Source: Cloacibacillus porcorum
Lineage (GTDB): Bacteria > Synergistota > Synergistia > Synergistales > Synergistaceae
Length of the DNA stretch: 64,000 nucleotides
Assembly (NCBI RefSeq): GCF_001701045.1
Contig: NZ_CP016757.1
Location: forward strand, 2,754,219 to 2,818,218
Direction of reading: 5' to 3'
This document shows positions 11,503-61,691 of this stretch, in pieces. A program made the position numbers and the translations under genes. The notes beneath the pieces were generated by a model, which saw only the letters and a program-made list of their open reading frames with translations, made no database searches and was not told where the DNA came from. Position 1 is the first letter of the stretch. Every line of letters starts with the position of its first letter.

Positions 11503-12336
11503 TTAGCCTTCTTCCGTTCGCCGCGGCGAACATGGTAAATTTTCCCGCGAGGGAATACTGCCGGTACGTTTATCCCTCTCTATCACGGCGAACGCGTCGT
11601 GGTTATGTATGCTCTCATGGCTCGTCACGGAGACCCGGTACCAGACCACACGTTCGTCGGCCTGCATCGCAAGCGCGAGCTCCCGCACCGAATCCTCGAC
11701 AAAACGTGGATTCTCGTAGGCGCGCTCCGTAACATACTTTTCATCCTCACGCTTGAGCAGGCTGTATATCGGCGCCGAGGCGCAGTCGTCGGCCATCTGA
11801 ACAAACTCCTCAAGCCAGACGAAACCGGCGAGACGTACCTCCATCACCGCGTGCGCGCGCTGGTTGTGAGCTCCAAATTGGGAGATCTCCTTTGAGCAGG
11901 GACAGAGAGTCTGGATCGGAGAGGTGACCGTCGTCACAAGGTCAAAATCATCGCCGCGGAGCGCCGCGTCAAAGCGGACATCGCAGCGCAGCCGCCCCTT
12001 AGCGCCGCTGACCGGCGCTGCCTTCGTGATGAAATAGGGAAAATCGAATACGGCGTGCGCGTCGCGGGCCTTCAGCCGTTCCTTGAGAGTCACCAGCAGC
12101 CCCTCCATATTATGAAAGGTGACGCGCTTCTCCTGCGCCCCGAGGACCTCTACAAAGCGGCTCATGTGCGTGCCGCGGTAGTCCTGCGGCAGCGAGACCG
12201 AGAGGCTCACCTGGGCGACCGTCTCCTGCGTTCCGTTCGTGCGGTCAGGCACCGAGATCGGCCACGAGATGTCGCGGATACCGACCCGGTCGATCGCCAT
12301 ATTCCTGTTGTCGGTCTCGTTCTGTACGTCACGCAT
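11503..12336 (-). CDS. folE2: GTP cyclohydrolase I type 2 (FolE2)
   Basis: Converts GTP to 7,8-dihydroneopterin triphosphate, the first step of tetrahydrofolate and queuosine synthesis. The 277 residues match the FolE2 (COG1469) fold. Conserved blocks include GTHMSRFVE, SPIQTLCPCSKEIS with the metal-liganding Cys, GAHNQRAHAVMEVR and the C-terminal ESIHNHDAFA. FolE2 differs from classical FolE in accepting metals other than zinc. The start overlaps queD by 8 bases and the stop is 2 bases from rlmI. No classical folE is in the window. Confidence 0.96.
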   Translation of the reverse strand: MRDVQNETDNRNMAIDRVGIRDISWPISVPDRTNGTQETVAQVSLSVSLPQDYRGTHMSRFVEVLGAQEKRVTFHNMEGLLVTLKERLKARDAHAVFDFPYFITKAAPVSGAKGRLRCDVRFDAALRGDDFDLVTTVTSPIQTLCPCSKEISQFGAHNQRAHAVMEVRLAGFVWLEEFVQMADDCASAPIYSLLKREDEKYVTERAYENPRFVEDSVRELALAMQADERVVWYRVSVTSHESIHNHDAFAVIERDKRTGSIPSRENLPCSPRRTEEG

Positions 12337-12700
12337 CTTTTACATCCTCGCGGCGGCAGATGACGGAAGAGCTCTCCGTCTCCCACAGCCGTATCTCATG
12401 TAGCCGGCAGTTGGCGCGCGAAAGCGGCCCGTCAAGCGCGCGGAAGATCCAAACCGCGATATATTCCGCGGTGGGCTGCGGCAGGATATCGTTTATATAG
12501 GCATGGTCAAGCTTCGAGAGCACAAGCTCGTTAACGGCCTTTTTGAGGTCTACAAAGTCAAAGATCATCCCCTCGGCGTCAGGCTCTCCCTCGAGCGTCA
12601 CCCGCAGATGGTAGGTGTGGCCATGAAGACGCTCACACTTTCCATGATAATGTATAAGGTTATGTGCTGCATCAAATTTAAAATCACGGCACAGTAACAT
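12329..12700 (-). CDS. queD: 6-pyruvoyltetrahydropterin synthase/QueD family (COG0720) with CExxHGH motif
   Basis: A small (123 residues) T-fold enzyme acting on dihydroneopterin triphosphate made by FolE2 next door. The zinc ligands are His13, His26 and His28. The catalytic motif reads Cys22-Glu23-Arg-Leu-His-Gly-His, i.e. CExxHGH. E. coli QueD has CGRLHGH, without the Glu. From memory of COG0720 work, Glu in this motif marks PTPS-III proteins that yield 6-hydroxymethyl-dihydropterin and replace FolB. Cys plus Glu marks dual I/III proteins. So the product may feed queuosine, folate or both. A strong AGGAGG precedes the ATG. First gene of the run down to divIVA. Confidence 0.9.
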   Translation of the reverse strand: MLLCRDFKFDAAHNLIHYHGKCERLHGHTYHLRVTLEGEPDAEGMIFDFVDLKKAVNELVLSKLDHAYINDILPQPTAEYIAVWIFRALDGPLSRANCRLHEIRLWETESSSVICRREDVKDA

Positions 12701-12866
12701 CCCTATTCCTCCTAAGTTTATTTTTACGCGACTTTATTCTACCACGTAGCCGCAGCACTGTTTACCCGTAAAAATTCCGCGTAAACGACAACGGGCCGAC
12801 GGCGCGGCGCATTCTTTATGGAAAGAATGGCTTCAAATACAGATTGTATCACCTGAATGTCCCGCA
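12701..12866. other. Divergent intergenic region with a gmhA 3'-end-like remnant
   Basis: Bases about 12749-12781 read on the minus strand closely match the last codons of gmhB-gmhA and the bases after its stop (about 14808-14840). Both contain ATTTTTRCGGGTAAACAG, with few mismatches over about 33 bases. Here it is non-coding and lies just upstream of queD. It may be a leftover of a rearrangement or duplication. No other feature was recognised. Confidence 0.4.
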
Positions 12867-59983: not shown

Positions 59984-61198
59984 ATGCCCGCCCACCTCAT
60001 CCGCTTCGGAGATAAATGGGAGCTGACACAGGCCATTGAAAAGGTAGGCTGCGATATAAATTCCCTGCCCTACTTCGAGAACCGCCGCGAGATGCTGCAG
60101 CTCTACGTCACGGACGTCCCCGCGCCGGCGGCCAGCATCATCAAGCAGGAGATGCTCTCGCGCGGCGGCGACGCCGCCGTACACGCGCAGGTGATCACCT
60201 GCGGCGTTAAAAAGAGCGACGTCATTCTCTTCGGCACGGCGAAGCAGCTCGGCCATCTCGCAGAAAAGCTGGCACGGATGCCATGGTGGGGCCTCGGACG
60301 CCTCGCAGACGAAATACGCGGCCTGATCGCCCCGTCGCTTCCAGAGACAAGAAGACTTCCCTGCGGCACTGAGCTTCCCTTCGGAGAGAGAATGCTGCTG
60401 ATGGGGATCATAAACCTCACGGACGACTCATTCTTCGCCGGAAGCAGAAGCGGCGCGGAGACCACTGAGACCGTAAAAAGGGCGCTGCGCATGGCCGAAG
60501 AGGGGGCCGACATTCTCGATCTCGGAGCGGAATCAACGAGGCCGGGAGCGGGAAGGGTTCCCGAAGAACAGGAGATATCACGCATGGAGGCGGCGGTGAG
60601 GGCGATACGAAACGAACTTCCGCATATGCCCCTTTCGATAGATACCACGCGCTCCTCCGTAGCGCGTGCCGCGCTTGCCGCGGGCGCGGACATAATAAAC
60701 GACGTTTCCGGGCTGCAGTTCGATGAGGATATCGCGCACGCCGCGGCCGAGTATGGAGCGATGCTCGTCGTTATGCATATGCGCGGCACCCCAGGAGATA
60801 TGCAGTCGATGTGCGGATACGATAATCTCATCGCCGAGGTCTGCTCTTTCCTCCGGGAAAAGACAAAGAGGGCCGAGGAGCTGGGCGTGCCGAAAAAAAA
60901 TATTATAATAGATCCGGGCGTCGGGTTCGCAAAGGACTACAACCAAAACTTGCTGCTGATGCGCCACTGCGAAAGCTTCAAAGCCCTTGGCTATCCGCTG
61001 CTGGTCGGAGCCTCGCGAAAGGGCGTCGTCGGCGCCGCCACGCAGACAAAAAAAGCGGAGGAGCGGCTCTGCGGCACGCTTGCCCTGACCTCCGTTTGCT
61101 GTTGGCAGCGTGCGGACATCATCCGCGTCCACGATGTGAAAGAGAATAAAGAGGTCATCATGATGACAGAGGCGGTACGGGGAGCAAAATATGTCTGA
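59984..61198 (+). CDS. folP: Dihydropteroate synthase
   Basis: 404 residues. Joins 6-hydroxymethyl-dihydropterin pyrophosphate to p-aminobenzoate. The TIM-barrel blocks are GIINLTDDSFFAGSR, DILDLGAESTRPGA, LSIDTTRSSVARAAL, INDVSGLQFD, MHMRGTPGDMQ and IDPGVGFAKDYNQNL, with the end GASRKGVVG. An N-terminal extension of about 120 residues precedes the barrel, a form known in Clostridia-type DHPS. It overlaps folK by 8 bases. No folB lies between folP and folK. Confidence 0.96.
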   Translation: MPAHLIRFGDKWELTQAIEKVGCDINSLPYFENRREMLQLYVTDVPAPAASIIKQEMLSRGGDAAVHAQVITCGVKKSDVILFGTAKQLGHLAEKLARMPWWGLGRLADEIRGLIAPSLPETRRLPCGTELPFGERMLLMGIINLTDDSFFAGSRSGAETTETVKRALRMAEEGADILDLGAESTRPGAGRVPEEQEISRMEAAVRAIRNELPHMPLSIDTTRSSVARAALAAGADIINDVSGLQFDEDIAHAAAEYGAMLVVMHMRGTPGDMQSMCGYDNLIAEVCSFLREKTKRAEELGVPKKNIIIDPGVGFAKDYNQNLLLMRHCESFKALGYPLLVGASRKGVVGAATQTKKAEERLCGTLALTSVCCWQRADIIRVHDVKENKEVIMMTEAVRGAKYV

Positions 61199-61691
61199 TC
61201 ATAAAGTGGTACTGGCATTGGGCGCCAATCTCGGCAACCGCCTTGAGGCGCTCAAAAAAGCGATCATAAAGCTGGAGAGCTGCGGAATACGGACGGAGGC
61301 AAAGAGCCGCGTCTGGGAGACAAAACCCTGGGGCGTAACGGAGCAGCCGCTCTTTCTCAATATGTGCATGACGGCCCGTACGGATCTGGAACCAATCGAG
61401 CTGCTCTGTCTGCTGAAAAAGACTGAGGCTGAACTGGGCCGTTCCGCAGGTACACGCTGGGGACCGCGTGAGATCGACATAGATGTGATCTTTTTCGATT
61501 CTCTATCACTCAAGGTCCCAAAGCTGGAGATCCCCCACCCGCGCATGCACGAACGGGGTTTTGTACTGAGGCCGCTCATTGAAATCGCCCCCGACATAGT
61601 ACATCCCATCCTGGGAAAGAGCGCGGCCGAACTTTTCGAAGAGCTGCCTGATTCGGAGAAGGACGGGATGGTATGGATATCAGAGGTATGA
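61191..61691 (+). CDS. folK: 6-hydroxymethyl-7,8-dihydropterin pyrophosphokinase (HPPK)
   Basis: 166 residues. ALGANLGNRLEALKKAI at the start, RVWETKPWGVTEQPLFLNM, GRSAGTRWGPREIDIDVIFF (with the metal-binding Asp pair) and IPHPRMHERGFVLRPLIEIAP are FolK signatures. It makes the pyrophosphate used by FolP next to it. ATG overlaps the folP stop by 8 bases, and the next gene overlaps its end by 19 bases, so the three are coupled. Confidence 0.97.
   Translation: MSDHKVVLALGANLGNRLEALKKAIIKLESCGIRTEAKSRVWETKPWGVTEQPLFLNMCMTARTDLEPIELLCLLKKTEAELGRSAGTRWGPREIDIDVIFFDSLSLKVPKLEIPHPRMHERGFVLRPLIEIAPDIVHPILGKSAAELFEELPDSEKDGMVWISEV

Follow-up and report, generated by a model that had tools for sequence, protein, structure and literature searches.

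The folate genes of Cloacibacillus porcorum raise the question of how the organism makes the substrate of FolK. The window (the whole stretch of DNA analysed, 64,000 nucleotides long) contains folP, encoding dihydropteroate synthase (59984–61198, plus strand), folK, encoding HPPK (61191–61691, plus strand), both recognised by profile matches, and folE2, encoding a type IB GTP cyclohydrolase I (11503–12336, minus strand; model NF010200, 273 bits against a cut-off of 215), but no folB. The initial annotation had described folP as joined to folK without folB; there is indeed no folB between or beside them, whereas the two are separate, overlapping genes and not a fusion. FolP carries an N-terminal extension of about 130 residues (window 59984–60400) that matched no Pfam family at E 0.001.

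We consider it highly likely that the gap is closed by a COG0720 enzyme encoded next to folE2, a folate-synthesis enzyme of the PTPS-III type that bears a hybrid motif and serves folate only, with Q-tRNA being made from imported precursors. FolE2 would convert GTP to 7,8-dihydroneopterin triphosphate, whose side chain would then be cleaved by the COG0720 enzyme with the aid of its zinc site and Glu23. This would yield 6-hydroxymethyl-7,8-dihydropterin in a single step, skipping both the phosphatase step and FolB; and FolK, for which this proposed product would be the substrate, would together with FolP (59984–61691) take it on to dihydropteroate. Queuosine would not be a second use of the enzyme. 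What was read directly is the gene content, the co-occurrence, the operons of the relatives, the conserved residues and the predicted fold; the reaction is deduced from them, and the role of Glu23 would follow by analogy with Plasmodium mutants. FolB bypass by PTPS-III is already known, and what is traced here is very probably its course through a whole bacterial phylum.

The COG0720 gene and its operon context

The gene (12329–12700, on the minus strand, which the initial annotation had left unstated) is an intact open reading frame with an ATG start that encodes 123 amino acids, preceded by a strong AGGAGG ribosome-binding site (12708–12713, minus strand). Its assignment as a proposed PTPS-III draws on profile matches, predicted fold and residue conservation; the protein scores 126 bits against the Pfam PTPS family (cut-off 22), and its closest named relatives are from the Synergistaceae. 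FolE2 had been noted as its neighbour in the initial annotation, and the link proves to be a tight one: both genes lie on the minus strand and share 8 nucleotides, the folE2 start residing within the last codons of the COG0720 gene, an overlap that suggests translational coupling. An Rfam search of the window found no riboswitch.

The same company is kept outside the phylum. Relatives of about 60% identity in Caloramator, Thermobrachium and other Firmicutes are encoded in PTPS-folE2-folP-folK operons, and among the 80 closest named homologues this gene order recurs in Fonticella, Thermosediminibacteraceae and Gallicola; que genes were detected near none of these 80 loci. A maximum-likelihood split between folate-linked and que-linked proteins was weakly supported (60).

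FolB and the distribution of the enzyme across the phylum

The genome searched is a single contig of 3.585 Mb (99.98% complete). It gave no match to the FolB family PF02152 and revealed one further COG0720 gene, in which the two catalytic positions hold neither Cys nor Glu. A profile built from 17 FolB proteins of the phylum, with rows taken from the phylum's own FolB matches but without a positive-control genome alongside, likewise found none at E values up to 10; on these two negative searches we rejected a hidden or divergent folB. The archaeal-type MptD was absent from all 121 phylum genomes including this one, in a search whose controls were positive in three archaea.

Across these 121 genomes the CExxHGH enzyme follows the folate genes. 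It agrees with FolK in 109 genomes (93 with both, 16 with neither, and six discordant in each direction) and with FolE2 in 117 (99 with both, 18 with neither, four discordant). The corresponding Fisher p-values, about 1e-10 for FolK and about 6e-18 for FolE2, are given before allowing for species relatedness, which inflates them; the losses of the enzyme are spread over five families. FolE2 is encoded near the CExxHGH gene in at least 60 of 98 phylum loci, a lower bound in that the flanks fetched spanned about 500–1500 bases.

Six genomes possess FolK and lack the CExxHGH enzyme. FolB is present in two of them, and the other four, with neither FolB nor the enzyme, are all drafts of 82–93% completeness. 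Conversely, the enzyme is retained in 13 of the 15 genomes that have both FolB and FolK; FolB and the enzyme are therefore not simple alternatives in these organisms. Among genomes with FolK, loss of the COG0720 enzyme was not significantly associated with the presence of FolB (2/6 versus 13/93, p 0.22). The replacement of FolB that had originally been suggested for this locus is nevertheless supported by the absence of FolB and MptD, by co-occurrence with FolK and FolE2, by the folate operons of the relatives and by the conserved Glu described below. The enzyme would fill a missing folate step in nearly the whole phylum, and bacteria that bypass FolB in this way would presumably not respond to FolB inhibitors.

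Several arrangements of the folate genes were observed alongside. FolK and FolE2 matches fall within one open frame in 13 genomes (G052 among them), an apparent fusion of about 500–530 amino acids that is longer in some, and some of these genomes have a second FolK. Two deep-branching genomes of the phylum (G003 and G007) encode FolB and have no FolK or FolE2 match. In G097, FolB adjoins FolP in a frame that also contains a FolK match, the classical folP-folBK arrangement; this genome has another FolK, too, and retains the CExxHGH enzyme, and its folP-folBK genes were possibly acquired.

The Cys-Glu motif and the predicted structure

Codons 22–28 of the COG0720 gene (12617–12637, minus strand) encode CERLHGH, within the sequence KCERLHGH, and both Cys22 and Glu23 are present exactly as first claimed. 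We take Cys22 to be the QueD-type nucleophile, Glu23 the catalytic residue of the PTPS-III type, and His26 and His28, from knowledge of the family, the zinc ligands. The segment matches the QueD motif CxxxHGH by way of C22, the PTPS-III motif ExxHGH (E23-R-L-H26-G-H28) and the PTPS-I/III hybrid motif CExxHGH. In an alignment of 147 distinct relatives Cys22 and Glu23 are invariant, as are His13, His26 and His28; Asp65, His66 and Glu107 are invariant in all but one gapped row. Among 26 distinct COG0720 motifs with a que neighbour, on the other hand, the residue after Cys is Gly in nine, Arg in six, Ser in three, Ala and His in two each, and Asn, Phe, Lys and Glu in one each, the single Glu belonging to Parabacteroides; we compiled this comparison set ourselves, drawing on phage and plasmid records, and it over-represents QueD of phages and of the E. 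coli-like kind. Since Glu occupies this position in 147 of 147 relatives as opposed to 1 of 26 que-linked motifs, the CExxHGH sequence is not a chance match. A similar contrast drawn by the presence of FolB had to be discarded, as Glu is found in FolB-containing genomes as well.

A precedent for Glu23 is the Plasmodium falciparum enzyme (PfPTPS), in which the Glu at the equivalent position is required for the production of 6-hydroxymethyl-dihydropterin, the FolK substrate, and in which an E38C mutation abolishes it (PMC2229834). The two systems share the Glu of ExxHGH at the same place, supply by a GTP cyclohydrolase I, the FolB gap, the fold (VIA-align Z 12.9, 2.1 Å rmsd over 116 residues to the PfPTPS structure 1y13) and, when the bacterial PTPS-III relatives are included, a folate gene context. 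They differ in that Glu replaces Cys in PfPTPS, whereas the C. porcorum protein keeps Cys beside Glu and is only 27% identical to 1y13.

A pyruvoyl product can also arise from PTPS enzymes in a side reaction, and PfPTPS itself makes both products (PMC2229834), so that a PTPS-II-like enzyme yielding 6-pyruvoyl-tetrahydropterin, or a pterin enzyme of some other pathway, has to be weighed; with a motif that is not CxxxxxHGH, and a gene coupled to folE2 and co-occurring with folK, we judge this reading highly improbable.

The AlphaFold model of the protein is confident (pLDDT 97). Its best fold matches are the QueD proteins of E. coli and P. aeruginosa (Z 19), followed by human PTPS (Z 17) and Plasmodium PTPS (Z 13), while FolB proteins reach Z 9–10, reflecting the shared T-fold. 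The closest solved structures, by both sequence and fold, are true QueDs: E. coli QueD (4ntk) superimposes with Z 19.2 and 0.9 Å rmsd over 113 residues, is identical at about 41% of the aligned residues and shares the Cys and the zinc His residues. It has Gly at the position of Glu23, however, and the que gene context is absent around the COG0720 gene here. The protein also exceeds the threshold of the QueD equivalog model TIGR03367 (101 bits, cut-off 89). Taken together, the structural neighbours and this score would suit an enzyme that is solely a true QueD (PTPS-I), with folate being made via an unrecognised aldolase. Such an account is very hard to reconcile with the invariant Glu23, the relatives in folate operons, a genome with neither FolB nor MptD, and the lack of the partner QueC, and we regard it as most unlikely.

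On TIGR03367, folate-operon relatives from Thermobrachium and an Acidaminococcaceae genome score 105–106 bits, over the cut-off and above the QueD encoded in a queCDEF operon of Paenibacillus (91 bits); the model fails to distinguish the two groups. The default QueD annotation in the phylum, and in relatives such as Caloramator, is probably wrong, and surveys of gene content that take QueD as a sign of queuosine synthesis would go astray.

Queuosine precursors and the second COG0720 gene

In the de novo queuosine route QueC is needed after QueD. A search with PF06508 found no QueC in C. porcorum and a real one in just one of the 121 phylum genomes, G067 (2.7e-58). The best match in C. porcorum covers 60 of 210 positions with a score of 26 bits; it resides next to the second COG0720 gene, inside a 421-aa open reading frame that by eye we take to encode an argininosuccinate synthase. 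The phylum-wide matches at E values around 1e-5 were rejected as QueC; most are about 60 residues long, like the one in C. porcorum. The QueE model TIGR03365, a narrow one that only a single control passes, had no match over its cut-off in the 121 genomes. TGT, in contrast, is found in 120 of the 121 genomes, and 94 have QueT, a transporter of queuosine precursors; this genome is included in both counts. The presence of TGT and QueT without QueC indicates that the organism probably salvages queuosine precursors, in agreement with a 2024 survey in which most Synergistales were predicted to be preQ1/preQ0 salvagers (PMC11130926). Judged from gene content, the queuosine precursor does not appear to be made de novo in the phylum, G067 being the one genome with QueC.

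The CExxHGH sequence is the published signature of PTPS-I/III hybrids, which in some organisms have been described as acting in both pathways (PMC5041015), and the initial annotation had proposed on this basis that the enzyme supplies queuosine as well as folate. The QueD score above its cut-off and the real QueC of G067 would agree with such a dual role. It is at odds with the absence of QueC here and in 119 other genomes of the phylum, with the lack of a QueE match in the narrow model and with the signs of salvage. Furthermore, the 16 genomes without FolK and FolE2 also lack the CExxHGH enzyme, yet 15 of them retain TGT, the exception (G009) being a genome of 77% completeness. Without QueC the product of a QueD has no known use in this organism, and we consider queuosine service by this enzyme very unlikely. 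The likeness to the published hybrids ends at the motif; with the queuosine route incomplete here, a dual motif does not imply dual use.

For the folate-only enzyme that we favour, the invariance of the Cys calls for an explanation, and a functional need in the folate reaction or slow loss are both possible. A more specific proposal, which we put forward tentatively and rate as rather doubtful, is that the Cys-Glu pair is the site of catalysis in a PTPS lineage dedicated to folate, in which Cys would be needed by the folate reaction or for a second product of another pathway, and CExxHGH would mark folate competence as opposed to dual function. The phylum offers a natural test case for the published motif rule, with CExxHGH fixed where the QueD product is unusable for queuosine.

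The QueC gene of G067 belongs to a queC-queF-queT cluster (contig C5, 102280–103958) with no queE detected nearby, which suggests salvage of 7-carboxy-7-deazaguanine or a recent gain.

The second COG0720 gene of C. porcorum is distant from the first (C1:2381184–2381585). With the sequence GEAQYLHGH, and present in few genomes of the phylum (about nine others have a paralogue of this type), it was ruled out as a FolB substitute. The paralogue, as seen in two retrieved loci (L002, 1456–2046; L214, 5140–5730; both plus strand), is a protein of 196 aa with a C-terminal CxxC...CxxC tail that resembles a zinc ribbon; its gene directly follows that of an apparent Fur-family regulator and is convergent with a probable argG.
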